IMG/VR virus record: IMGVR_UViG_3300020281_000015
Span: 1 to 64,000 of that record
Direction: 5' to 3' (one strand)
DNA length: 64,000 nt
From: a virus
Shown: positions 1-64,000 of the stretch, one piece after another
Position numbering within the stretch: the first letter of the stretch is position 1
How the letters are laid out: each line of letters starts with the position of its first letter
Notes under the pieces: model-generated
The model's database searches: none
What the model was told of the DNA's origin: nothing
Seen by the model: only the letters and a program-made list of their open reading frames with translations
Position numbers and translations under genes: made by a program

Positions 1-216
1 AAGCAAAGTAGGGAGGACTCGGTTATACCTCCAACCCCTCGACCGAGATGCCATTCTCAAATCCAGGGAACCTATTTCCGCTCGGTAGAGCGATGTGACT
101 CAGCGTATTTCTACTACCAAGCCTGGGTACCACCCCTAAACAGTCAAGTTCGACGCTCTGGTAAACGCCTCTTCCTTGCACTACAAACATTGACTAGCTA
201 AGTCTTTGTTGCTTAT
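1..216 (-). ncRNA. Probable structured small RNA, possibly continuing past the window edge
   Basis: No convincing reading frame occurs here, and the sequence is visibly richer in G+C than the flanking genes. A sigma-70-type promoter (250 to 223, minus strand) predicts a start near 216. One self-consistent fold can be drawn by eye: a closing helix 1-6 with 209-214; a helix 142-147 with 190-195; a helix 64-68 with 122-126 enclosing a 5-bp hairpin 79-83/88-92; and an H-type pseudoknot from 11-16/28-32 with 18-23/42-47. The closing helix lies at the predicted 5' end, as in many discrete regulatory RNAs. I do not recognise it as tmRNA, 6S RNA, RNase P RNA or a tRNA. The 3' end may be just outside the window. 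Strand choice rests on the promoter and the upstream terminator; function is unknown. Confidence 0.6.
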
Positions 217-222
217 GTTACT

Positions 223-250
223 AATATAACATCTTTATAATAAATGTCAA
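223..250 (-). promoter_or_regulatory. Sigma-70-type promoter for the leftmost RNA
   Basis: On the minus strand a perfect TTGACA (-35, 250 to 245) is followed after 16 nt by TATATT (-10, 228 to 223), five of six matches to TATAAT. The predicted start, near 216, falls at the 5' edge of the structured RNA. The sequence just before the -35 box (AGAGG) is the same as in the promoter of gp47. Confidence 0.75.
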
Positions 251-263
251 CCTCTTTTTTAAA

Positions 264-303
264 AAAAAGTCAAAAAAATAGGTCCTATAAAAGGACCTAT
301 TTT
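264..303 (-). terminator. Rho-independent terminator of the capsid gene
   Basis: An inverted repeat pairs 275-286 with 292-303 (AGGTCCT core). On the minus strand it is followed by a run of seven T, a GAC, then eight T. It lies 26 nt beyond the stop codon of gp23 and upstream of the next leftward promoter, so it separates late capsid transcription from the small RNA. Confidence 0.85.
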
Positions 304-328
304 AATCTCGTATATTACGACAGTAATA

Positions 329-1504
329 TTAGCTAAAGCTAACGTTACCAGAAGTAATAGCTACTGCGCCGAGGTAATCAGCCGCGTTACCAAGAGACGA
401 AGCAGTATTTGATAATTCAATATACCCGTATCTTGTCATAAAGCTAACTGTTGGCTCAAATGTGGACGGATCCAACACAACGCCTGAGCTCATTAGCGGA
501 ATATATGGGCAATAGAATGCTGCCGCATCAGACTCGCTTGCGCCTTTATAACCAACAAGTACGTTAGCATTGTCAGCCGCATATGTGTTTACATATACTT
601 TCATAGCGTTGTTTAAAGTACCAACCATCTTAGTGTTAGTTGGAGCTTCGAATGAACCTTCAGTTGTTCTTGCGAACGCTGAAGTAGTTGCACTTTGTAG
701 AATTGTAAGTGCAAATGGACTTACAACAGCCCAGTTACCTGCGCCTCTACGTGTACGCTGAGCGATTTGGTTTGACACTCTGTTGATTTGAACAGCTAAT
801 GCCGCATGCTCATCACCAACGAAAGTAGCAGTACCAGATACCGCCGCTTGGTCATATGTTTGACCAGCTGAACCTGCAAGAGTATTCAAGCTAGCAATAA
901 CCTCTTGGTCAATTTCAGCGGTAATTTCTTGTGCAAGAGCAGCCATAATTTCTGCTTCTACATCAATACCGTGCATTGACTGAGCGTCTTGAGCCGCTTC
1001 AAAAGTCCAGCGAGCTGATAGCTTTCTGGTTTTTGCTTCGACTGTTTGCTTCAAGATTTGGATTGATAGCTTGCTTCCACCAGCGCCTTCAAGCGTTGAT
1101 GTATTATCAGCTTTGCCTGTTGTAGCATTACCGGAATAAGCTTCCGCAATCTTGAATGGTGAAAGTGCTTCTTCACCTGCTGTAGCACCGGACGCACCTG
1201 AGCCTACAGTTTCTGCGTATCTTACACGCAATGTGTGGATTTGACCCACTGGACCAGTCATCGGTTGAACACCAACAAGTTCGTTAGCAATAACGGTTGG
1301 CATTACACGTCTGATGACGGGTAAGATAACTCTGTTAAGAGTTGCGACATTACCGGCGGATGTTGTACCTGCAACAGCTGTCTCAGACAAATACTTGCGA
1401 GTATTTTCTAAGGTAGCACCCATTACAGCTTTCTTATTGCCTTGTAGGCCTTCCAAAAGTGCAGTTTTGGTATCCTGCCAGCGACTTTCTAATAGTTCTG
1501 ACAT
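329..1504 (-). CDS. 23: Major capsid protein, T4 gp23-like
   Basis: Main shell protein of the head, 391 aa, with an ATG start preceded by a strong AAGGAG ribosome site. The C-terminal third carries features typical of gp23: the RRGAGNW segment near residue 255, then VLVGYKG, CPYIPL and MTRYGYIE. The protein is shorter than T4 gp23 (521 aa), as some marine relatives are. T4 gp23 is matured by gp21 at (I/L)xE sites; here LSE at 39-41 is the best match near the N-terminus, so a leader of about 41 residues is inferred. It is last in the leftward head operon (gp20, gp67, gp21, gp22, gp23), 10 nt after the scaffold gene. A clear terminator follows it. Confidence 0.96.
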   Translation of the reverse strand: MSELLESRWQDTKTALLEGLQGNKKAVMGATLENTRKYLSETAVAGTTSAGNVATLNRVILPVIRRVMPTVIANELVGVQPMTGPVGQIHTLRVRYAETVGSGASGATAGEEALSPFKIAEAYSGNATTGKADNTSTLEGAGGSKLSIQILKQTVEAKTRKLSARWTFEAAQDAQSMHGIDVEAEIMAALAQEITAEIDQEVIASLNTLAGSAGQTYDQAAVSGTATFVGDEHAALAVQINRVSNQIAQRTRRGAGNWAVVSPFALTILQSATTSAFARTTEGSFEAPTNTKMVGTLNNAMKVYVNTYAADNANVLVGYKGASESDAAAFYCPYIPLMSSGVVLDPSTFEPTVSFMTRYGYIELSNTASSLGNAADYLGAVAITSGNVSFS

Positions 1505-1514
1505 AATTATCTCC

Positions 1515-2615
1515 TTAATTTAATCCAGCCAAACGTTTAATGTCAATAACATTGTTATTTACATCTGCTTGCTGTTGTGAACTAACGTTAGTTTCTTCTC
1601 TGTTGCCTGTGATTTCTGTGCCTTCTGTAAGTACTGCCTTCTTAGCTGGAGTATTACCGTCGATAACCGCTGGTAGATACTTATCAAACTGAGACTTTAG
1701 TCTATTAGTCTGAACTGATTCCAGTAAATCAATCATAATTTCTTGTTGATCTTTAGCCAAAGGCTTAATCAACTCGTTAATTACTTCTTTTCTTTGCGTT
1801 GACTCAACAATCTTCTGTTTTTCAGTAGCTGTTGCTTCTGCAATTTCTTTCGCTTTCTTTGCAAACTCCTTAGCTTCTGCAAGTTGCTTATTTTTCATGT
1901 CTACAACTTTTAGAAGTTTTGCAGTTTCTGATTTTTCGTTAAGGTAACTAGTACCATACTCAGATGCAAAGCTTTCGAAAATCTTACGACCGAAGTCGTT
2001 TTTACGTGCAGTGTCAATATCTTCTTTAAGCTGACTAATCTCTGACTTAAGAGCTTTTTCAACTGTTTCGGATACTGCTTTTGCACCTCTTTCGACAAAG
2101 TCAGCTTTGACTTTAGCGAAGTGTTTTTTAGCTTCACGTACTAAACGTACTTTTGTTTCAGCTAAATCTTTTTTGTCTTCTTGGAATTCGGATATTTCTT
2201 TAGCCAAGGCTTCTACAACAAATTCTTCTAACTTAGCAATATTTTCTGCTTGTAGTTTTTTATCTGTATGTAGGTCTTTGATTTCAGTAGCTAATTGCTC
2301 AGCAACAAAACCTTTGAGTAAGTCTGCATTTTTACGCTGTGCTACAGCAAATTTTGCTTTTGCTTCAGCTAATTGCTTGCGATCTTCTGCAAACTCTGCA
2401 ATCTCAGCTTGAAGACGCTCAGAAAGCATGTTATCAATGGCATCAACCATTGTATTTTTATCATGCTCGTACTTTTGTGCAAATTCTTCACGTAATTCAG
2501 CAGTTACCTGCATTTTATTTTCTTGAATTTTTGCATTCCATGCTTCTTCAATCTCAGCCTTAATTTCGGATGATACCACGTCATTTTCAAAAAGTGTTTT
2601 TAGTGCATCTATCAT
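1515..2615 (-). CDS. 22: Prohead core scaffold protein, T4 gp22-like
   Basis: Main internal scaffold on which the prohead shell assembles; degraded by gp21 during maturation in T4. At 366 aa it is almost wholly charged, alpha-helical and coiled-coil-like (Glu/Lys/Ala/Gln-rich from about residue 10 to 300), with a less ordered Asn/Thr-rich stretch and a conserved-looking end IDIKRLAGLN. Many (I/L)xE sites are spread through it, as expected for a gp21 substrate (IAE near residue 72, several LAE). It sits between the protease gene and the capsid gene, exactly the T4 order 21-22-23. The name rests on context, composition and the C-terminal motif, because scaffold sequences diverge quickly. Confidence 0.93.
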   Translation of the reverse strand: MIDALKTLFENDVVSSEIKAEIEEAWNAKIQENKMQVTAELREEFAQKYEHDKNTMVDAIDNMLSERLQAEIAEFAEDRKQLAEAKAKFAVAQRKNADLLKGFVAEQLATEIKDLHTDKKLQAENIAKLEEFVVEALAKEISEFQEDKKDLAETKVRLVREAKKHFAKVKADFVERGAKAVSETVEKALKSEISQLKEDIDTARKNDFGRKIFESFASEYGTSYLNEKSETAKLLKVVDMKNKQLAEAKEFAKKAKEIAEATATEKQKIVESTQRKEVINELIKPLAKDQQEIMIDLLESVQTNRLKSQFDKYLPAVIDGNTPAKKAVLTEGTEITGNREETNVSSQQQADVNNNVIDIKRLAGLN

Positions 2616-2629
2616 ACCATTCTCCTAGT

Positions 2630-3262
2630 TTATTGGAGTTTACTAATCAGATTGATTAGTGATTCCTTAAGATACTTTTGTGCCTTTGGATCGTGTTTAG
2701 TTGCCTGTGCTAATTCGTATGCCTTCATTCCTCCACGTGCATTCATTAGATGCTCGTATATTGGTGTTGGATATGCACCAGGGGCGCTTGGCTGTGCCAC
2801 AACGTCCACGGTGATTATTTCAAAGTCGGAAACTTCTCCGCTTCCATCTTCCATAACATTGCCCGAACCCCTTGATGAGACTCCTAATTTTACTCCGCTT
2901 TCAAGCATTGTTTTAACTAGTTGTCCCATCGGGGTTGGTAATACTTTTAGTTTACCGTAACCATTTGCATCGTCCATCCACATTTCTGTGATCATGTGTG
3001 ATACACGGTCAAGGTTGATGTTAAGTCCTTCTGGATGATCTACTTCTCCGAGAACTGAATATCCTCCAGTAATTTGATCGTTGAGAGTTTTGACAGCCCT
3101 GCCTATTTCGGATACAGGATACACTCGCTGATTGGCATTTCTTATACCGCCTTGGATAACAATACCTTTCATATAAAGGTCTTTGCCACCACTATCGTTG
3201 TCGGCAGTTTCAATAACCATTTTAGCCTGGTCAAATGTCAAGTTCTCTCGTAAGTTAATCAT
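2630..3262 (-). CDS. 21: Prohead protease, T4 gp21-like
   Basis: Serine-type maturation protease that trims capsid and core proteins at (I/L)xE sites, 210 aa, near the T4 length. Likely catalytic residues are visible: His76 in GEVDHPEG and Ser129/Ser130 in GVSSRGSG, with an acidic candidate in ITVDVVAQPS near residue 157. The QRVYPV motif near residue 45 is typical of the family. An LRE site at residues 4-6 could serve for self-processing. It lies 15 nt downstream of the acidic core gene and 14 nt upstream of the scaffold, as in T4. Its predicted substrates here are gp22, gp23, gp67 and probably the two MKI(N/D)E proteins at 11.2-14.1 kb. Confidence 0.95.
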   Translation of the reverse strand: MINLRENLTFDQAKMVIETADNDSGGKDLYMKGIVIQGGIRNANQRVYPVSEIGRAVKTLNDQITGGYSVLGEVDHPEGLNINLDRVSHMITEMWMDDANGYGKLKVLPTPMGQLVKTMLESGVKLGVSSRGSGNVMEDGSGEVSDFEIITVDVVAQPSAPGAYPTPIYEHLMNARGGMKAYELAQATKHDPKAQKYLKESLINLISKLQ

Positions 3263-3277
3263 TCAAATTTCCTTAAC

Positions 3278-4279
3278 TTAACCGCCAACAACAGGTTTTT
3301 TGTTATCAGCGTCTTCTGGCTTGCTTTTCTTCTCTGCACCATGTCCTGGTTGTGCTTTTAATGACTTAGAAGCTTTACCACCTGGTACATTTACATTGCC
3401 GCCGTCTTGGTCTTTTGGACTTGCGTCTCCTAGACCAGCATGCTCGCCACCGCTTTCTTCAGCACCTTGTGCTATGTTACTTGCTGTGCCTCCCATGTTA
3501 TTTGGGCTTGCGACTGTGCTTTTTGCATTAGCACCATTGTCTCCGCCTATTTTTTGAGCGTCTAAACCGCCGCCGGATACTTTTTCTACGTACTCACGCA
3601 TTTCTTCTCCAGCAGTTTTTGGAGTTTTAGACTCCTCAACTTCTTCATCAGTAGCTTCTTCTACTTCATCAGTAGCTTCTTCTACTTCTTCGTCTGATGC
3701 TTCTTCTACTTCATCTTCTGAAGCTTCAAAAGCTGATGCTTCTTCAGGCTCTTCATCACCTGGCTCTTCATCGCCACCTTCATCGCCTGCCATCATTTTT
3801 TCAAATTCTGCTTTAAGATCTTCAAGTGCATCTTCTAGATCTTCAACACGATCTTCAACGTCACCTTCTGGCTCATCGTCGCCGCCTTCGTCGTCGTCGC
3901 CGCCTTCGTCGTCCATTCCAAGATCTGACATCATATCATCTGTTGGATCTGCTTCTACAGCTACGGCTGTAGGATCAGCTTCAACTTCAAATTCGTCTAA
4001 GTCAAAGTTTTCTTCAACTTCGTCATCTTTTGCTTCGTCGACTTCTTCATCTGACGCTTCGTCTACTTCTTCATCAGAAGCTTCATCAACTTCCTCATCT
4101 GAAGCTTCATCTACAGCTTCATCAGTAGCTTCGTCAACGTCTTTATCGTCTTCTAGAAGTCCTTCGTAAATATCTCTGGATTTTTCCACTACAATCTCGT
4201 GGAATAGTTTTTCTGCCGCCTCTTTGTCTTCATTGACAAGGAGTTCTAGCATTTGTTCAAATTTATTGCGATCTGCCAT
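3278..4279 (-). CDS. 67: Acidic prohead core protein, T4 gp67-like, expanded
   Basis: The first 45 residues (LELLVNEDKEAAEKLFHEIV and onward) resemble the N-terminus of T4 gp67, a small acidic internal core protein. The rest is extremely acidic, with repeated VDEASDEE and VEEAxDEE units (about residues 48-85 and again about 185-220), a DDEGGDD stretch, then a more neutral Gly/Asn/Lys-rich tail. At 333 aa it is about four times T4 gp67 (80 aa). Its position before gp21 matches T4. A late-type promoter and a 5'-UTR hairpin precede it. The acidic part may neutralise core or DNA charge; that is inference. gp68 is an alternative name, but the N-terminus favours gp67. Confidence 0.8.
   Translation of the reverse strand: MADRNKFEQMLELLVNEDKEAAEKLFHEIVVEKSRDIYEGLLEDDKDVDEATDEAVDEASDEEVDEASDEEVDEASDEEVDEAKDDEVEENFDLDEFEVEADPTAVAVEADPTDDMMSDLGMDDEGGDDDEGGDDEPEGDVEDRVEDLEDALEDLKAEFEKMMAGDEGGDEEPGDEEPEEASAFEASEDEVEEASDEEVEEATDEVEEATDEEVEESKTPKTAGEEMREYVEKVSGGGLDAQKIGGDNGANAKSTVASPNNMGGTASNIAQGAEESGGEHAGLGDASPKDQDGGNVNVPGGKASKSLKAQPGHGAEKKSKPEDADNKKPVVGG
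4030..4137 (-). repeat. 24-bp tandem repeats coding an acidic VDEASDEE array
   Basis: Imperfect 24-bp units in tandem within the gp67-like gene, differing mostly at third codon positions. A related, less regular set lies at about 3625-3720. Length variation by slippage would stay in frame. Confidence 0.75.
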
Positions 4280-4303
4280 TTTACTCTCCTATAATGTATT
4301 ATG

Positions 4304-4320
4304 CATACCGAATCGGTATG
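4304..4320. other. Hairpin in the 5'-UTR of the gp67-like gene
   Basis: A 7-bp stem (CATACCG with CGGTATG) and a 3-nt loop, between the late-type box at 4340-4334 and the start codon at 4279. It would be near the 5' end of the gp67 transcript. A stabilising or regulatory role is inference. Confidence 0.55.
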
Positions 4321-4333
4321 GGCTGTCATAATA

Positions 4334-4340
4334 TATTTAC
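4334..4340 (-). promoter_or_regulatory. Late-type promoter box for gp67-gp21-gp22-gp23
   Basis: GTAAATA on the minus strand, 55 nt upstream of the gp67-like start. It matches the last six bases of the T4 late element TATAAATA and sits in one of the few gaps of the head operon. Confidence 0.5.
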
Positions 4341-4368
4341 TTTTTTTGCAGAAAACTACGTAGATATA

Positions 4369-4383
4369 GGCTCAAAACGAGCC
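4369..4383. other. Stem-loop after the GNGTSR-motif gene
   Basis: GGCTC pairs with GAGCC around an AAAAC loop, 15 nt beyond the stop codon at 4399. There is no long T run on either side, so termination is only weakly supported; it could be a processing or 3'-end stabilising element. Confidence 0.4.
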
Positions 4384-4398
4384 ATTTTGACTAGTTTG

Positions 4399-5112
4399 TC
4401 AGATTTTAAAGGAATTTTTGAAATCCCTTATGTGAATATTCTCCACATTTTCTAATTTTGTCAGCTCAGGAGGAGTAAAAAATGCTTCTCCTAACACTCT
4501 TATATATCTCTTTTTTGGAAAATTTTGGCAAGTAATTGTAGTTTGTTTAAGCCAATTTCCAAAATATGTTGCTTTTTCAGTGGGACTTTTGTAGTTAGGA
4601 GTACCTGCATATATGTTGTTTACAAGCTGTCCGGTGCCTTCGAAATCAAATCCTAAGATGTAGATAGTATCATATTCAGTCATATCTGAAGCAAACCATA
4701 ATGCTGTTGGTCCACTACTCCATCCCTTAGACGGTTGAAAAAAGTTAAATCCTGTCATATTAGCATATGCTCTATTAGGATTAGTCCATGTTTCTACTTT
4801 ATGCTGTATACCTTCTCTATTAATTTCTAATATCATTTTAGTATCAACAGCTACAAGATAATCTGGAATAAAATCTCTATAAAGAGCATTACATCCGTAT
4901 ATTTTACCAAATGGACGCAAAGTTTCTAAATTTATAGGAGATCTACTAGTGCCATTACCTATTACAAATGCAATTTTATTATTCGTTGGTGCATTAACAA
5001 TTTGATTCTGAATATGTTCAGAATTATTAGATAGGCTTTGTTTTTTGGCTTTGGCTAAGTTTTTCCGAGCTTTACGTTGCTCTTTGGTCTCGCCAGGAAT
5101 ATATTTTTTCAT
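4399..5112 (-). CDS. GNGTSR-motif protein inserted in the head operon; function unknown
   Basis: A 237-aa soluble protein with a basic N-terminus (about residues 5-30) and then an alpha/beta domain starting IAFVIGNGTSR. Later motifs are YGCNALYRDF, PDYLVAVDTKMI and YDTIYILGFDFEG. The GNGTSR loop followed by a VAVD strand resembles nucleotide-binding Rossmann-type folds such as DUF115/MptE-like and some sialyl- or glycosyltransferase-like proteins. That is a fold-level impression, not an identification. No signal peptide or membrane segment is visible. It lies between the core genes 67 and 20, where T4 has no such gene, so it is probably co-transcribed with head genes and might act on a head component. 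Confidence 0.6.
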   Translation of the reverse strand: MKKYIPGETKEQRKARKNLAKAKKQSLSNNSEHIQNQIVNAPTNNKIAFVIGNGTSRSPINLETLRPFGKIYGCNALYRDFIPDYLVAVDTKMILEINREGIQHKVETWTNPNRAYANMTGFNFFQPSKGWSSGPTALWFASDMTEYDTIYILGFDFEGTGQLVNNIYAGTPNYKSPTEKATYFGNWLKQTTITCQNFPKKRYIRVLGEAFFTPPELTKLENVENIHIRDFKNSFKI

Positions 5113-56780: not shown

Positions 56781-58107
56781 TTTAAGCGAATTATTAAAAG
56801 CACTTACTACTAGTGTAGAAACTGATGATCTTACGTATGTATACTATTACAGCGATAGCGGAGAAATATTTAAAATATCAGGTGTAATAGATGAGGTTGA
56901 AGAAGGGCAAGAAATACTTGAAGTACTTTACGATATTGCTAGTCCTATTCTAACTGGAGAAAAACGTACAACAGATTTTGTGGTCATTTATGATACTGCG
57001 TTAAAGCGTAAAACTTTAAAAGAAAAAAACTATCAAGATACGTTTAAAACTGCATCTGCTATGTGCTATCAAATACCTGTTATTGCAAAAAGCCTTGCAG
57101 GTCATTTTTCGTTATCTGAAATTTATGAAGATGTAAAAGTCTACATATGGGTTAAAGAGTTAGCTTATAAAAAAGATGACATAGTTTGGTATAATGATAA
57201 TGTCTATAAATTACTTGCAGATAACGGAAAGGATAAAAGATGGAGCAAAAAAAATTCTAAGTTGTTTATTGAAAATGTATTCTTATCTGACATTCCTACG
57301 CAAAAGTTTTCAGTGTTAGAATTAAAATTTGAACAACAATATAAAGGTATACATGTTGATGTATGGTATGATGATTTAAATCATTTGGCAGGACAGCATG
57401 TATGGATAGGAGACTGTGTATATAAAATATTAGAAGACCAGCCCGCACACACAAATTTTGATCCAAAAAATGCAGAAATGCTAGTATCTAATGTAGCACT
57501 TAGGAACGACACAAACAAAAATCTTACTTTTACACAAATTATCGATGATGGAAAATTATATTTAGATTTTAATAAAATTTATAGTGCAAAAATTATAGAA
57601 TCTCATTATGATAAAAGTGCAGATGATATAGTTTATCATACAGATGAACGTCATATAATAGTTTGTAAAAAAGACTTTAAAATTCATATGGATACTTTTG
57701 ACAAGAAAAAGTTTAATTATTTAAAAACTGATTTAACATTACAAGATCAAAATACATTAAAAAACGGAGACAAAGTTTTACTAGGTACAAAATTATATAA
57801 TGTACAGTTAAATAAAGAATTTGATATTATAGTAACTCAACATACTAATGAAAAATTCTGGCAACTGAATATACACCCCTCGACATTAAAATATTTTCAA
57901 ACAACTAATTATGATCAAGATGACCTTTTGTACTTTAGTATTACTGCAAAACATGATCCTAATATACTTTATAGGTCATTGAAAATACCATTATCAATGT
58001 TAGCTGATAAATTAGTAATTCCGTTTAAATATGATGCAGAACATAAAGAAGATCTTAGTATATATACAGCAAAGTATTTTGATAGTTATGGACACGAAAT
58101 TTTATGA
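56773..58107 (+). CDS. Unknown protein with two W/Y 'GDxVxYxxxxY' modules
   Basis: 444 aa, no family recognised. Two stretches, DIVWYNDNVYKLLADNGKDK (about 134-153) and HVWIGDCVYKILEDQPAHTN (about 212-231), repeat a pattern close to the CBM5/12-like modules of the giant baseplate protein (DIVKYRESLWKA, TIVEYNNQLYKAKT). The rest is beta-rich and charged, and the C-terminal part (KNGDKVLLGTKLYNVQLNKE) may contain a third, weaker copy. It could be a virion or glycan-binding protein made with the transferases and perhaps their substrate; this is inference. It overlaps both neighbours (8 and 4 nt). Confidence 0.65.
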   Translation: MSDLSELLKALTTSVETDDLTYVYYYSDSGEIFKISGVIDEVEEGQEILEVLYDIASPILTGEKRTTDFVVIYDTALKRKTLKEKNYQDTFKTASAMCYQIPVIAKSLAGHFSLSEIYEDVKVYIWVKELAYKKDDIVWYNDNVYKLLADNGKDKRWSKKNSKLFIENVFLSDIPTQKFSVLELKFEQQYKGIHVDVWYDDLNHLAGQHVWIGDCVYKILEDQPAHTNFDPKNAEMLVSNVALRNDTNKNLTFTQIIDDGKLYLDFNKIYSAKIIESHYDKSADDIVYHTDERHIIVCKKDFKIHMDTFDKKKFNYLKTDLTLQDQNTLKNGDKVLLGTKLYNVQLNKEFDIIVTQHTNEKFWQLNIHPSTLKYFQTTNYDQDDLLYFSITAKHDPNILYRSLKIPLSMLADKLVIPFKYDAEHKEDLSIYTAKYFDSYGHEIL

Positions 58108-59027
58108 CCAACAGATTTAAAGTAACAGACTATGACATAATTTATTTAAGTTATGACGAACCTAATGCAGAAAAAAACTATGCAGACTTATGCAGTAAAG
58201 TTCCGTGGGCAAAACGTATACATGGAGTTGAAGGTTCTGACGCCGCACACAAAGCTTGTGCTGAAATAAGTGAAACTGATAGATTTATAACCGTAGATGG
58301 AGATAACATAATAGATCCTAAATTTATTCAGCAAGTTATAGATTTTGATGAACATGAAGATCTACAGCATAGTGTTATAAGTTGGGCAGGATATAATGTA
58401 GTCAATGGTTTAATGTATGGCAATGGCGGACTTAAATGTTGGCCAAAGAAATTTGTACTTAATATGCGTACCCATGAAAATGCTGATCCTAATAATGCTC
58501 ATGCACAAGTTGACTTTTGTTGGGATATAAATTATATTCAAATGAATAGTTGTTTTAGTTATGTATATAATAACCATACTGCCCAGCAAGCTTGGAGAGC
58601 AGGCTTTCGTGAAGGTGTGAAAATGGCATTAGATAGAGGAGTGCGTGTTACGAAAGAGGAGTTTGCAAATTTACACTGGAAGAACTTACATAGGTTGTAT
58701 ATTTGGTTAACAGTTGGCAGCGATGCAAAAAATGGGCTTTGGGCAATATACGGAGCAAGAGAAGGCCTATACAAAACAATGGCTACAGAATGGGACTACA
58801 TAAATGTAAGAGATTTTGAATATTTGAACAACTATTGGAATGAGCAAGTAAAAATAGAAGAGGAAAATCTTTTAGATGCAGTGAAAAAATTAGGTAGCAA
58901 ATTATTAAATGAATTAGATGTTCCTATCCCAGTAGATCCTTTTAGTGAAGAACAAAGCAAATTTTTTAAAACTGTTTATCAAAATCCTGGTAGGATGGCA
59001 AATCAATTCATTGATATTGAGAGATAA
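58104..59027 (+). CDS. Glycosyltransferase-like protein, VDGDN motif
   Basis: 307 aa. DYDIIYLSYDEPNAEKNYAD at the start is the first strand and loop of a GT2-like GT-A fold; VPWAKRIHGVEGSDAAHKAC follows, then RFITVDGDNIIDPKF (about 67-81), whose DGD is the metal/nucleotide motif. A later region, LKCWPKKFVLNM, CWDINYIQMNS and AWRAGFREGVKMAL, is a family-specific helical part. Similar proteins are frequent in marine phages. The acceptor is unknown. It starts within the previous stop (4-nt overlap) and is followed 2 nt later by the first radical SAM gene. Confidence 0.72.
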   Translation: MTNRFKVTDYDIIYLSYDEPNAEKNYADLCSKVPWAKRIHGVEGSDAAHKACAEISETDRFITVDGDNIIDPKFIQQVIDFDEHEDLQHSVISWAGYNVVNGLMYGNGGLKCWPKKFVLNMRTHENADPNNAHAQVDFCWDINYIQMNSCFSYVYNNHTAQQAWRAGFREGVKMALDRGVRVTKEEFANLHWKNLHRLYIWLTVGSDAKNGLWAIYGAREGLYKTMATEWDYINVRDFEYLNNYWNEQVKIEEENLLDAVKKLGSKLLNELDVPIPVDPFSEEQSKFFKTVYQNPGRMANQFIDIER

Positions 59028-59029
59028 AC

Positions 59030-60433
59030 ATGAGTCAAAGCAGTTATAATGCTGGAGCCGAATACGCTAGAGAGAAGCTAAAGCAAATTAGTTGTTCAAT
59101 GTGTCTTGCAAAATGGACACAAGTAACAATGCATTTGCATAATGGGCATACCCATAGCTGTCATCATCCTGCTCCTCATTTTATTCCTTTAGATGAAATA
59201 AAACAAAATCCCCATGCATTGCATAATACAAAACATAAAATAAAACAACGCCAACTAATGCTTGCAGGAGAACAACCAGAAGAATGCAACTATTGTTGGA
59301 ATATAGAAAATTTAAATCATGGGCATTTTAGTGATAGGCATTTTAAAAGTGGAGAAGATTGGAACGAAGGACAACTTGAAAAAATAAAAGCAAACCCTTT
59401 AGATGAAAATTTTTTACCAACTTATGTTGAAGTTAGTTTTAATAATACTTGTAATTTTGCTTGTATGTATTGCAGTCCACAAATATCTAGTAAATGGATG
59501 GAGGATATTGAACACGGTGGAGCATATGACCTAGGAAATTATCAAGTCCATCATCTTGATTACTTACGCATTAAAAATCAAATACCAATTCCTAACAGAG
59601 AAGTTAATCCTTATATTGAAGCATTTTGGAAAATATGGCCTGAGCTATATACTAATTTAAAAGTTTTTAGAATTACAGGCGGAGAACCGTTGTTAAGTAA
59701 ACACACATGGAAAGTATTAAAGTATATTCAAGATAATCCTAATCCAGATTTGATAATAGGAATAAACACAAATTTAGGAGTACAAGATGCTTTTATTGAT
59801 AGATTAATACCTATAGCAAAAGATCTAATTCTTAATAATAAAGTAAAAAACTTTGAATTATATACAAGCGTCGAAAGTACAGGAGTACAAGCAGAATATA
59901 TTAGAGATGGATTAGATTATAAAAAGTTTATTAGCAATCTTAATAAAGTAACAAGCGAAATTCCAATGTTAGATTGGAAGTCAAAAACAGTTATTATGGC
60001 AACATATAATTTATTAAGTATTCCTAATTTTAGAAATTTGCTAGAATGGTTACTTGAATGGCGTACTAAACATGGTTCAGCTACGTGGAAAAAGTTATGG
60101 TTAGATATAAGTTATTTAACTTATCCTAACTGGCAAACTATTGCATTAGCTGATAATAATATGTTAGCTATAATGGAGTCTGATTTAAAATTTATGCAAG
60201 ATCATAAAGAACAAGCAATAGGACATCACGGATTTCAAGATACCGAAATTTCAAAAATGGCAAGGGCTGTAGACTATGTGACGCAAAATATAAGCAAAGA
60301 TAAAACAACTGAGATGATGCAGTTTTATAATTTTTTTAATGCTTATGATTTGAGAAGAAATAAAAACTTTGTAAAAACTTTTCCAGAATTTGCAAATTTT
60401 TATAGTAGGTGCAAAGAGGTAGCAAATGCATAA
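59030..60433 (+). CDS. Twitch-domain radical SAM protein, paralogue 1
   Basis: 467 aa. A radical SAM core is shown by CNFACMYC (CX3CX2C, Cys141, Cys145, Cys148), which binds the [4Fe-4S] cluster that cleaves S-adenosylmethionine, and by RITGGEPLL near 213. Ahead of it are Cys25-X13-Gly39-X4-Cys44 and Cys86-X2-Cys89. That matches the first part of SPASM/twitch motifs, but placed N-terminal rather than C-terminal, the arrangement annotated as 'twitch domain-containing radical SAM protein'. Thus two Fe-S clusters are predicted. Substrate unknown; twitch and SPASM enzymes often modify peptides or sugars. It overlaps the next gene by 8 nt. Confidence 0.88.
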   Translation: MSQSSYNAGAEYAREKLKQISCSMCLAKWTQVTMHLHNGHTHSCHHPAPHFIPLDEIKQNPHALHNTKHKIKQRQLMLAGEQPEECNYCWNIENLNHGHFSDRHFKSGEDWNEGQLEKIKANPLDENFLPTYVEVSFNNTCNFACMYCSPQISSKWMEDIEHGGAYDLGNYQVHHLDYLRIKNQIPIPNREVNPYIEAFWKIWPELYTNLKVFRITGGEPLLSKHTWKVLKYIQDNPNPDLIIGINTNLGVQDAFIDRLIPIAKDLILNNKVKNFELYTSVESTGVQAEYIRDGLDYKKFISNLNKVTSEIPMLDWKSKTVIMATYNLLSIPNFRNLLEWLLEWRTKHGSATWKKLWLDISYLTYPNWQTIALADNNMLAIMESDLKFMQDHKEQAIGHHGFQDTEISKMARAVDYVTQNISKDKTTEMMQFYNFFNAYDLRRNKNFVKTFPEFANFYSRCKEVANA

Positions 60434-61688
60434 AGTTCCAATATGGCATAGGACAGATTTAAACGACTATCCAGAAACTCCCGATGGTCAAAAGTTATAC
60501 AAGTATCATTGTGGTATTAATTTAGATTATTTGAATAATACTTACAATGCTCATGGTGATCCTGGTATTAACATAGGAGTAGCAGGTATACATAAAACAA
60601 GGGTATACGAAGATATTGATTCAAATTACAAAGGAAAATATTACTATCCTTTTATATTGATGCAACCTATAGAAGGAGTACATTATGGTTCTGTGCCAGA
60701 TAAACCTATTATAGATATTGAACCAGAACATATATTAAATATAAAAACAGGTAGATGTAAAATTTTAATTGTGAATACCATGGAAGGTTGGGATCATAAT
60801 TCGTTCTTTAAAATTTTAATTGATGCTATCAAGAGTAAATATTTCCTAAAATATAATGATTTTGTAATACTGTCGGGCAATATGGAAGAAACCCAATATG
60901 GTACGCCTACTGTGTATCATAATTGGTGGGAACAGCATCTACGAGAGCACGATTTGGGAGAACTATTAGAACAAGGTGTCCTAAGCATGAATAATTGGGA
61001 AAGGCCACACAAGTTTATTTGTTTGAATAGAAGACCTCACGCCCATAGAATAGCAATTACAACACTATTACATAATTATAAACACAAAGGTATACTTACA
61101 CTTGCTAAAAAAGTTGACAACCATACAGAAGTTTTTGATAAAAATCTTAAACTTATGAATGAATACTATCCTGGATTAACAGCAAAGCCTAAAGCTATGA
61201 ATCGTCTTCTTAAAGATTTACCTTTGGAATATAATGACGGAGTAGACCCAAATACAGAAAATCCAGTACATGATGATGCCCCTGATAAATTTTATATGAG
61301 TTATCTACATGTCGTTACGGAAACATTTGGGAGAGGATCACAAACTTTTTTTAGTGAAAAAGTTTTCAAACCAATTATATACTTCCAGCCTTTTGTATTA
61401 GTGGGTGCATATAATGATTTGCATAGGTTAAAAAGTTTAGGTTATAAAACTTTTAATGGTATAATAGACGAAAGTTATGATGATATTAAGGATGACGAGA
61501 AAAGATTAATAGTGTTATCGAAAGAAATAGGTAGAATTGTTTCTATGTCAAATGATGAAATTAATAATTTTTATCAAAGTTGCTACGACATCATGATGCA
61601 CAATTTTTTCCATTGGATATATAGGCAACAAACAATACATATTGATTTAAAAAATAATTTGTTAAGGAAGTTAAATGGATACGCCTAG
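60426..61688 (+). CDS. Glycosyltransferase-like protein (GT10/exostosin-type C-terminus)
   Basis: 420 aa, no signal peptide. The C-terminal half has KFICLNRRPHAHRIAITTLL near 197, YLHVVTETFG near 295, FFSEKVFKPIIYFQPFVLVG near 309 and LKSLGYKTFNGIIDESYDD near 338. The S-EK-x-x-KP...PF...G...L...G pattern is shared by fucosyltransferase-like and other inverting GT-B-type enzymes found in phage and bacterial surface-glycan clusters. The N-terminal half is not recognised. Start overlaps the radical SAM stop; the next gene starts 14 nt before its end. Confidence 0.68.
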   Translation: MHKVPIWHRTDLNDYPETPDGQKLYKYHCGINLDYLNNTYNAHGDPGINIGVAGIHKTRVYEDIDSNYKGKYYYPFILMQPIEGVHYGSVPDKPIIDIEPEHILNIKTGRCKILIVNTMEGWDHNSFFKILIDAIKSKYFLKYNDFVILSGNMEETQYGTPTVYHNWWEQHLREHDLGELLEQGVLSMNNWERPHKFICLNRRPHAHRIAITTLLHNYKHKGILTLAKKVDNHTEVFDKNLKLMNEYYPGLTAKPKAMNRLLKDLPLEYNDGVDPNTENPVHDDAPDKFYMSYLHVVTETFGRGSQTFFSEKVFKPIIYFQPFVLVGAYNDLHRLKSLGYKTFNGIIDESYDDIKDDEKRLIVLSKEIGRIVSMSNDEINNFYQSCYDIMMHNFFHWIYRQQTIHIDLKNNLLRKLNGYA

Positions 61689-62403
61689 TTTATTTGCATT
61701 TGGTTGTAGTTATACATACGGACATGGTTTAGAAGACTGCTTCGAACTTTATCCCAATGGTAACAATGGTCCAGGAAAACTTCCTACAAGATTGGGTTAC
61801 ACAAATATAATTGCAAAGAAAATTGGTAGGAGGGTGATTAACTGTGCATCTCCTGGCTCAAGTAATAAATTAATTATGCATACTATAAACATGATAAAAC
61901 AAGAAGAATATTATACGGTTCATCAAGGAAAAAAACTTAAAAAATTACAAACTTATTGGAGAGAAAAAATTCCTGCTATGAATCCTGATACAGATGCTGT
62001 AATAATTCAATGGAGTTACATAGACCGACACTGTGTTTTAGATCAATATGCAGACGTGCAATTAGATAAAGTAGAAAATTTAGGACCGTGGGTAAAAAAA
62101 GGTAGATCTCCAAAATATTATAAATTTGTTTGGTCTACTTACGATGATCAAATTAGTGTATATCATTATATAAATTATGCTGATCTTACACTAAAAAACA
62201 TGGGCTTTAAAAAAGTTTTACATTTGCCTCCGCCGTTGTTAAGTTTGCATAGAAGCAAATTAGAAAAGGGTTTGGTTATGGCAGATACAGATATTACACG
62301 ACACTCATGTGATAAGGCTTTAGATGGCGGCCATCCAGGTCCTCTATCACAACAAGCGTATGCTGAACATTTGTTAGAGGATTATGCTGAATATTTAAAA
62401 TGA
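61675..62403 (+). CDS. SGNH/GDSL-like hydrolase
   Basis: 242 aa. Block I FGCSYTYGHG places the nucleophile at Ser12; ASPGSSNKLI (about 59) fits block II with its Gly/Ser; DAVIIQWSYIDR near 105 is like block III; and the C-terminal DGGHPGPLSQQAYAEHL supplies the Asp217/His220 pair of block V. SGNH enzymes act as esterases or acyl/acetyl transferases on glycans. Being among glycosyltransferases, glycan (de)acylation is plausible, but the substrate is unknown. Many marine phages carry such genes. Start inside the previous gene, end overlaps the next as ATGA. Confidence 0.78.
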   Translation: MDTPSLFAFGCSYTYGHGLEDCFELYPNGNNGPGKLPTRLGYTNIIAKKIGRRVINCASPGSSNKLIMHTINMIKQEEYYTVHQGKKLKKLQTYWREKIPAMNPDTDAVIIQWSYIDRHCVLDQYADVQLDKVENLGPWVKKGRSPKYYKFVWSTYDDQISVYHYINYADLTLKNMGFKKVLHLPPPLLSLHRSKLEKGLVMADTDITRHSCDKALDGGHPGPLSQQAYAEHLLEDYAEYLK

Positions 62404-63854
62404 AAAAGATAACTGAAATAGATCCGCAAACTGCCGCACAGCAAGTATTGCCCATGTTGGATGAAATATCTCCTAGCATGTGCATGGCTAAATGGTTGTG
62501 GTCAAGTATCCATTTGACTAATGGTCTTACTAATAGTTGTTTTTTACCTCCGCTACACAAAATTGATCCAAAAGCAGTAGAAAATAATCCAAGAGCTTTA
62601 CACAATACACCAGAGAAAAAAGCACAACGTAAAATGATGCTCAAAGGAGAACAACCAGAAGGATGTAATAGTTGTTGGAAAGTAGAAGCTCAAGGTAAAC
62701 AACTTAGTGATCGTGCTTATCGCAGTTCAGAGCCCTGGGCACAACAAGGATGGGAAGAAGTTATTGCTACTGGTTCCGAAGGGGACATTGATCCAACATA
62801 TTTAGAAGTAAATTTTAATCATGCTTGCAATCTTGCATGTAGTTACTGTAGTCCTCATTTGAGTAGTAAGTGGGCAGAAGATATTGAGCAAAATGGTCCA
62901 TATCCTACTAAAGTTCCACACAATAGTATTGAATATTTTAAGAGCATAGGACATTATCCTATTCCAAACAGAGAACACAATCCTTATGTGGAAGCTTTTT
63001 GGAAATGGTGGCCTGAGTTATATCCTAAATTAAAACATTTTAGGATGACCGGAGGTGAGCCTTTAATGGATAAAAATACATTTCGTGTATTAGATTATGT
63101 CTTAGATCATCCACGAGATGATCTTAATATTAGCATCACCTCAAATGCAAGTGTTCCAAAAAAAAATTGGGATAGGTTTGTAGATACAGTAAGTTTCATA
63201 GATGAATATAAAAAATTAGAAAGCTTTAGGCTGTATGTAAGTGTAGACGGATGGGGAGAACAAGCCGAATATATGCGTGACGGTTTAGATTTTGAGCTTC
63301 TATGGAATAATGTAAACAATTATTTAACTAGAACCAAAGACGGCCTAGTAACTTTTATTGTTACATTAAATATGTTGAGTATGCCAAGTGTTAAAAAACT
63401 AATGCAAGGTATTCTTGAATTACAACGTATACATAATGTAAAAAAAACAAGGCGTGATGATAATGGAAAGTTGACATACTATGGCAACCATAGAGTATTT
63501 GTGGACACACCAGCTTTACATTATCCTGCTTGGCAAAGTTTAAAAGTATTGCCAGAGGAATTTTGGCATTACGGGGATGAGTGTTTAGAATTTATGAAAG
63601 CTAATACTGATAAACAACGTGAAAGTCGCTGGGTTGGATTCAAACCACATCAAATTAAGCGTTTTGAAAGAAGTTTAGATTTTATGAAGCAAGGATTTCC
63701 TACAGAACAAGACAAAATAAATGCACAGGAGAATTTTGTTAGATTTTTTGAAGAATACGATAAAAGAAGAAATTTAAATTTTCATAAAACATTTGTTGAA
63801 TTTAGTCCTTATGTAAAAAGATGGAAGAAAAATGCGATACTCACATCATCATAA
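62400..63854 (+). CDS. Twitch-domain radical SAM protein, paralogue 2
   Basis: 484 aa, paralogous to the gene at 59030. N-terminal twitch cysteines: Cys28-X13-Gly42-X4-Cys47 and Cys89-X2-Cys92, the same spacing as in the first copy. Core: CNLACSYC (Cys143, Cys147, Cys150), then RMTGGEPLMD near 219. Shared motifs include MCMAKW, PRALHNT, LKGEQPEGCNSCW and SDRAYRSSEPW. The C-terminal 150 residues differ most, so the substrates may differ. It overlaps the SGNH gene by 4 nt and the last, partial gene by 23 nt. Confidence 0.88.
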   Translation: MKKITEIDPQTAAQQVLPMLDEISPSMCMAKWLWSSIHLTNGLTNSCFLPPLHKIDPKAVENNPRALHNTPEKKAQRKMMLKGEQPEGCNSCWKVEAQGKQLSDRAYRSSEPWAQQGWEEVIATGSEGDIDPTYLEVNFNHACNLACSYCSPHLSSKWAEDIEQNGPYPTKVPHNSIEYFKSIGHYPIPNREHNPYVEAFWKWWPELYPKLKHFRMTGGEPLMDKNTFRVLDYVLDHPRDDLNISITSNASVPKKNWDRFVDTVSFIDEYKKLESFRLYVSVDGWGEQAEYMRDGLDFELLWNNVNNYLTRTKDGLVTFIVTLNMLSMPSVKKLMQGILELQRIHNVKKTRRDDNGKLTYYGNHRVFVDTPALHYPAWQSLKVLPEEFWHYGDECLEFMKANTDKQRESRWVGFKPHQIKRFERSLDFMKQGFPTEQDKINAQENFVRFFEEYDKRRNLNFHKTFVEFSPYVKRWKKNAILTSS

Positions 63855-64000
63855 TCTATTAGAAGAACATGACTTGCTTAATCCGAACAATACAGGACTG
63901 TATAGCAACTACCCTCTAGGACCTGCTTGGTTCCCTTTACGAGAAAAAACAAAGCAACAAGAAGGTTGGGACAGCATGTTTATTGATTTAGGTAAAACTT
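63832..64000 (+). CDS. Partial gene at the window edge, unknown product
   Basis: The reading frame from the ATG at 63832 is open to the window end (56 complete codons): MRYSHHHNLLEEHDLLNPNN at the start, GPAWFPLREKTKQQEGWDSM further on. It overlaps the radical SAM gene by 23 nt, as the other genes of the operon do. Family not recognisable from this fragment. Confidence 0.6.
   Translation, partial: MRYSHHHNLLEEHDLLNPNNTGLYSNYPLGPAWFPLREKTKQQEGWDSMFIDLGKT

Follow-up and report, generated by a model that had tools for sequence, protein, structure and literature searches.

The first 216 bases of the viral DNA stretch analysed here (64,000 nucleotides; the window), read leftward, probably form the 5' part of an RNA gene of about 245 bases that is present in single copy in a marine T4-like phage and is transcribed independently. 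Its product would be a divergent manA RNA acting in trans. From the sequence and its relatives, we give this reading a probability of roughly 0.6. Host sigma-70 polymerase would start at about position 216, the transcript would fold and be closed by an outer stem (P0), and transcription would stop at a terminator 3 bases after the RNA. Once complete, the RNA would work in trans, and binding of its conserved internal loops to a protein of host or phage, or to a small molecule, is the most likely mode of action. Expression early in infection may be proposed from the sigma-70 consensus. An earlier note, made from the letters of the window, had proposed a structured phage small RNA with its own host-type promoter and a putative early regulatory role; the structure and promoter are backed by the present analysis, and a terminator recovered from beyond the contig edge favours the term "small RNA". 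The manA family has been known since Weinberg 2010 (PMC2864571), and the newly described part would be the variant branch to which the window RNA belongs.

Sequence sets and controls

Variants were gathered from IMG/VR with a single exact 16-mer common to the window and Pelagibacter phage Mosig, which gave at least 119 stretches; because of this probe, invariance inside the variant set is there by construction. Five of the 119 listed loci were judged by context to be chance matches (L019, L031, L037, L049 and L093), so that the branch is present at no fewer than about 114 loci. Ninety-eight full-length sequences were kept, Mosig and the window included, and truncated ones (e.g. L025) were omitted; after dereplication 42 members, aligned with MAFFT, formed the sample for structure and promoters. 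A scan for canonical manA gave at least 120 loci, from which five chance matches (L137, L191, L217, L238 and L247) were removed before promoters and terminators were counted. Controls for both were mononucleotide shuffles. The 12 cyanophage records examined for context were the author's choice among 37 matching records, several of them duplicates.

Terminators were counted at the 61 dereplicated variant loci whose downstream sequence was long enough. In 48 of these (class A) the next recognised gene was not one of gp32, rubrerythrin and peroxiredoxin, or no gene was recognised; the 13 class B loci comprised 9 with gp32, 2 with rubrerythrin and 2 with peroxiredoxin. Same-strand frames were counted if they began with ATG, or with another start preceded by a Shine-Dalgarno sequence.

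Identity of the RNA

In Rfam E-value mode, window positions 1-330 matched RF01745, manA, with 50.2 bits (E 3.6e-12) over all 192 model positions. The whole window gave no match to Rfam at gathering thresholds, because the manA gathering score of 55.2, a curated cut-off that the window RNA does not reach, hides it. The statement in the earlier note that no known RNA class could be recognised was therefore wrong; the Rfam search that it proposed brings out manA, in E-value mode only. Judged by sequence, the window RNA is a divergent branch of the manA family. Among annotated phage records it is matched best by an unannotated stretch of Mosig, 75.5% identical over 226 bases, which itself scores 64.0 bits against the manA model and so lies above the cut-off. 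Nine other variants were scanned at the gathering threshold and manA passed in three. When 13 records were searched whole, 12 had exactly one manA match (44.7 to 64 bits) and one, G007, had none; four of the 13 exceeded the cut-off, and 8 of the 12 matches scored below it. The default cut-off of Rfam thus misses much of the variant branch.

Exactly one match was also found in 13 of 13 cyanophage records, under stricter filters that can lose weak matches. The single match in HTVC008M is weak (25.9 bits, E 6.8e-6) and lies before gp32; in all, 26 of the 27 records searched carry exactly one copy, at unrelated loci. The window RNA shares with the family a marine, T4-like phage distribution, to judge from its gp23 neighbour and its phage relatives, as well as the full-length consensus structure with covariation. 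Position in a potential 5' UTR of a regulated gene is found in relatives before gp32 and not at the window locus, where the promoter and terminator expected of an autonomous small RNA are present at the level of sequence.

Table 1. Features of the RNA locus at the left end of the window (window coordinates).
Feature	Position	Strand	Remarks
gp23 major capsid gene	329..1504	-	Pfam Gp23, E 1.4e-98; upstream of the RNA, same strand
Intrinsic terminator of gp23 transcription	303-275	-	12-pair hairpin, then T run
Sigma-70-type promoter TTGACA-N16-TATATT	250-223	-	11/12 matches; TG precedes the -10
manA-type RNA gene	1..216	-	3' end lost at contig edge
Rfam RF01745 manA match, full length	203-2	-	model 1-192
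Outer stem P0, 5' strand ATAAGCAA	209..216	-	partners 1-6 and two bases past the contig end; covariation
Outer stem P0, 3' strand	1..6	-	TTGCTT, then AT beyond the contig
Rfam closing multiloop helix (long-range stem)	7-11/181-185	-	placed by Rfam structure
Second long-range stem	72-77/138-143	-	placed by Rfam structure
Terminal hairpin, 5 bp	12-16/28-32	-	100% of cells paired; two pairs changed on both sides

Structure and covariation

The Rfam manA structure, which was derived independently of these sequences, was laid on the 42-member alignment. It paired 84.8% of cells, against 74.8% in shuffles and 37-56% when the pairing partners were shifted along the alignment; double-change cells numbered 247 (shuffles, 88.7) and the covariation score was 0.336 (shuffles, 0.153). 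None of 500 shuffles equalled the alignment in paired cells, double-change cells, pair types or covariation score, and 5 of 500 reached the observed number of pairs with a double change. The 5-bp hairpin and the two long-range stems foreseen in the earlier note are those of Table 1, and the covariation that it asked for among homologous phage contigs is present (42 members; 41 for P0). In helix 7-11/181-185 the inner four pairs are formed in 42 of 42 sequences and the outermost in only 7. The first hairpin of the Rfam structure (57.5% of cells paired) and helix 9 (44.8%) fit poorly in the MAFFT register; RNAalifold pairs both regions in a different register, with double changes in most pairs. 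The H-type pseudoknot of the earlier note stays a candidate; a manA pseudoknot likewise bears a question mark in the accessible text of Weinberg 2010 (PMC2864571).

Stem P0 is absent from the Rfam model. It corresponds to the closing stem 1-6/209-214 of the earlier note, which is present and covaries among the variants, its last two pairs being lost at the contig end. A free-register search for an outer stem proved too permissive (observed mean 7.35, swapped 6.88, shuffled 6.22), so the test was anchored on a conserved GC pair. The four outer positions were then paired in 40, 37, 34 and 29 of 41 sequences, against swap-control means of 25.2, 32.1, 23.6 and 21.0.

The stretch had also been described as richer in G+C and free of open reading frames. 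Short frames of 55 and 66 amino acids do cross it, but coding is disfavoured because relatives differ by one-base indels and by compensatory changes. A scan for tRNA and tmRNA genes found none.

Promoters

The leftward promoter noted earlier is present (Table 1) and ranks best among 10 promoter-like sites in window positions 1-4000. Shuffled versions of the same region contain on average 7.3 such sites (at least 9 of 12 matches), and the scan alone is insufficient for significance; recurrence of the site upstream of the RNA in relatives supplies it. In 38 of 42 dereplicated variants, window included, a site matching at no fewer than 10 of 12 positions directly precedes the RNA (shuffles, 3.5%), as it does at 96 of 111 canonical manA loci, counted without dereplication (shuffles, 3.0%). 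The -10 element ends 38-42 nt before the conserved core in 38 of 42 variants, these being a different 38 from the promoter-positive ones. Among 15 named phage records, 14 have 11 or 12 of 12 matches, HTVC008M and Mosig included; the P-HM1 promoter has a 19-nt spacer. The sole exception is S-CREM1, where manA lies between tRNA-Leu and tRNA-Asn. Adjacency to tRNA genes as a general rule for canonical copies was considered and rejected, as a tRNA lies within 20 nt at 10 of 121 loci, S-CREM1 among them. Because the position of the promoter puts the start near the first hairpin, canonical manA probably begins at about that hairpin and hence lacks P0; by inspection, HTVC008M appears to have a P0-like stem.

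The locus beyond the contig edge

The left edge of the window coincides with the end of a viral contig of 86,009 bp (position 1 in both), and the RNA is therefore cut at its 3' end. The missing sequence was supplied by two contigs of one metagenome-assembled genome (MAG) titled Candidatus Neomarinimicrobiota isolate RS350. Window positions 1-5000 and 57001-64000 match both contigs at 100% (rounded), which indicates that they hold the phage of the window; one base inside the RNA differs. The two contigs (G012:C57 and G012:C77; PBPT01000016.1 and PBPT01000082.1) are 335 and 153 kb long and belong to a GTDB species genome, in which they are likely misbinned phage contigs. The gp23 of the window has its top matches, at 65-69% identity, in large-genome phages (best 40 of 63 records), among them Sinorhizobium phage Phosso (469 kb), Vibrio phage 2.275.O (349 kb) and PA5oct (287 kb), whereas the named relatives of the RNA are cyanophages and pelagiphages.

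Past the window edge the RNA continues with 2 bases of P0, which complete the stem as TTGCTTAT, a 3-base linker (CTT) and a terminator, AAAAGGCTCGCCTCAAGCGGGCCTTTTT. In the predicted fold of the complete unit P0 and the terminator hairpin coexist (z -2.20; 5 of 200 shuffles were equally stable). The terminator that the earlier note placed between gp23 and the RNA is likewise there, as a 12-pair hairpin at 303-275. By its sequence the locus is a promoter-RNA-terminator unit and not a leader, and "small RNA" fits it better than "leader" because the terminator directly follows the RNA.

Downstream of the terminator is a late-type site, GATAAATA, which resembles the T4 late promoter TATAAATA, and then a 149-aa gene starting MGRPLNK. 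This gene is preceded by a freshwater-2 leader of its own (RF02980, 55.0 bits, cut-off 49.9), which extends to the start codon and includes it (L136 7163-7237, a record of the window's phage). The protein has no Pfam match, and its relatives lie downstream of the RNA at 41 variant loci among the matches listed. At one locus (L115 3960-4507) the interval from gp23 to the MGRPL gene contains, one after the other on the same strand, a glutamine riboswitch, manA and a freshwater-2 RNA, and at another (L055) a tRNA and a glutamine riboswitch lie upstream of the manA-type RNA on the same strand.

Terminators and neighbouring genes in relatives

A terminator lies within 40 nt of the RNA at 44 of 48 class A loci (exceptions L005, L027, L078 and L106) and at 0 of 13 class B loci, where the RNA reads directly into the gene; the terminator test was also positive on 12 of 61 shuffled variant tails. 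In 43 of the 44 class A cases the terminator begins 2-14 nt past a fixed reference point, and in one at 37. Its pair probability in the full-length ensemble exceeds 0.9 in 41 of 44 (lowest 0.365), and the affinity of the terminator arm for its own RNA is not preferential (-9.13 vs -9.0 kcal/mol); neither the fold ensembles nor arm affinity gave an antiterminator signal at these loci. Since the terminator forms alongside the RNA fold and its arm has no special affinity, class A terminators, as modelled, behave unlike those expected of a terminator-type riboswitch and would be constitutive. A late-type site follows the RNA at 26 of 48 class A loci (2.2% of shuffles), and at 66 of the 115 loci other than the window, among the matches listed, a same-strand gp23 is found no more than 4 kb upstream.

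At six loci (L016, L066, L094, L101, L100 and L106) the long frame that comes next runs on the opposite strand; that of L100 is a class-II tRNA synthetase (Pfam). Same-strand frames within 400 nt at these loci are only 22-45 aa long, and one, in L066 at 270 nt, has a Shine-Dalgarno sequence. In L100 and L106 a frame of 40-41 aa, with no Shine-Dalgarno, starts 3-17 nt after the RNA and may represent a tiny target gene.

Canonical manA follows this pattern with less clarity. A terminator was found in the next 110 nt at 47 of 94 dereplicated loci, a figure only about twofold above chance because the test was positive on 22 of 94 shuffled tails. Within 40 nt the result depended on the next gene: gp32 0 of 17, talC 5 of 15, hsp20 5 of 5. 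The RNA follows gp23 in S-SSM5, P-RSM4, MED4-213, P-HM1 and metaG-MbCM1, pstS in P-SSM4 and P-SSM3, regA in P-SSM2 and ferredoxin in P-SSM7; it precedes gp32 in P-HM2 and is near nrdB/talC in P-RSM6 and P-TIM68. The annotated neighbour in P-TIM68 is on the other strand, so that the next gene had at first been counted as convergent here; the case was withdrawn, as an unannotated 80-aa frame on the same strand starts 18 nt after the RNA. That frame (MLTVRCKGC.., L265 2196 onward) resembles the one following the RNA in L216.

Directly after canonical manA a recurrent element, AGACCTAAGATGCAACTC..GGGCAGATGGTCT (or GGGCAGAGGGTCT) with a T run, has a conserved interior and a terminator-like end (L235 at about 4140-4195; also L152, L161, L179, L183, L184, L190 and L207); in L235 it had no Rfam match. 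Short hypothetical proteins are annotated over the manA RNA in HTVC008M (I899_gp008, NC_020484.1 4993-5163), P-HM1, P-HM2, S-SSM5 and P-SSM4 and are probably spurious.

Discussion

These results suggest that an autonomous RNA gene fits the variant branch better than the cis-regulatory filing of manA in Rfam. One copy per genome, in changing places among unrelated neighbours and sometimes with no evident target gene, is the pattern that an RNA acting in trans would show. Extended to manA as a whole, the same reading would turn the family into independent RNA genes, one per genome, each under a sigma-70 promoter of its own. Marine T4-like phages that infect cyanobacteria, SAR11 and other hosts would carry such a gene as a cassette, which is moved between a few slots (after gp23, before gp32, beside nrdB/talC, inside tRNA clusters) and has a single conserved function to perform in trans in the early phase of infection. 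We put this forward tentatively, at somewhat less than even odds. That manA is instead a cis-regulatory leader, probably a riboswitch whose ligand decides terminator read-through or translation of the next gene, seems to us unlikely, though it deserves serious weight. In its accessible text Weinberg 2010 (PMC2864571) rates manA as certainly an RNA, certainly cis-regulatory and probably a switch; conservation of the RNA is aptamer-like, a single copy per phage is also compatible with a riboswitch used once, and terminators right after the RNA could serve as switch platforms. A leader role is natural where the RNA precedes gp32, rubrerythrin, peroxiredoxin or talC without a terminator: none of the 26 dereplicated loci before gp32 has one within 40 nt, and the canonical RNA reads straight into gp32 at 17 of 17 loci and into talC at 10 of 15. 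The RNA also precedes hsp20 and purL. At five loci of one cluster it stands before a gene in which a nucleotidyltransferase domain is joined to a mannose-6-phosphate isomerase domain (one member Pfam-checked). Against a leader, however, are the coexistence of terminator and RNA fold with no antiterminator signal found, the convergent next long frames in six contigs and the lack of an obvious common pathway among downstream genes; the next gene of the window, moreover, has a late-type site and a freshwater-2 leader of its own.

The sharp split in terminators, 44 of 48 against 0 of 13, could also mean that the RNA is used in two ways, autonomously after gp23 and as a leader or promoter-borne 5' extension before gp32, a position common to Mosig-like contigs, HTVC008M and P-HM2. 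We consider this improbable, as the core fold aligns and covaries in both arrangements, so that no leader-specific structure is seen; at the nine gp32 loci, 62-98 nt separate the RNA from the gp32 start codon, whose Shine-Dalgarno, by inspection, is left uncovered by the RNA. A fold that arose by chance in an AT-rich intergenic gap, or a short protein that went unrecognised, is scarcely credible. The single-sequence folding energy of the stretch is indeed unremarkable (z -1.74), but a chance fold is contradicted by the Rfam E-value and by covariation measures that no shuffle reached, and a protein by the one-base indels. For the window locus we therefore retain the autonomous RNA gene as the preferred reading.

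In the literature searched, with most subscription journals outside its coverage, no description of manA as a stand-alone RNA was found, nor an earlier one of a variant branch with P0, a fixed promoter and a terminator-bound arrangement. The accessible text of the Melnitz paper (PMC9004378) reports a glutamine riboswitch in Mosig and does not contain the word manA, and that of a 2020 pelagimyophage survey (PMC7029224) reports no riboswitches in its phages. This literature gives manA no tested function since 2010, and because the family is filed as cis-regulatory, readers are led to seek a ligand and a regulated gene. Cultured phages carry it (HTVC008M and Mosig on SAR11; P-HM1, P-SSM2 and others on Prochlorococcus), so the question of an autonomous RNA is testable now.

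Comparison with known systems

GOLLD and ROOL are stand-alone large phage RNAs, structured, non-coding and often near tRNAs; neither had an Rfam match in window positions 1-330, nor at gathering level in the whole window. The RNA of Mosig EXVC030M (MT647606.1 108164-108371), the 75.5% match over 226 bases described above, has the same promoter type as the window RNA, but unlike it has no terminator and precedes rubrerythrin, with gp32 next. The manA copies of S-SSM5, P-RSM4, MED4-213, P-HM1 and metaG-MbCM1 occupy the same slot, directly after gp23, and differ in being canonical in sequence (168.8-189.7 bits). With manA RF01745 itself the window RNA has in common the full-length match, largely the same helices, the marine T4-like phage setting and a sigma-70 promoter at the 5' edge, which canonical copies also have. 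It differs in its score below the gathering threshold, a 5-base deletion in the first internal loop, the added stem P0 and a constitutive-looking terminator in place of a downstream target gene.
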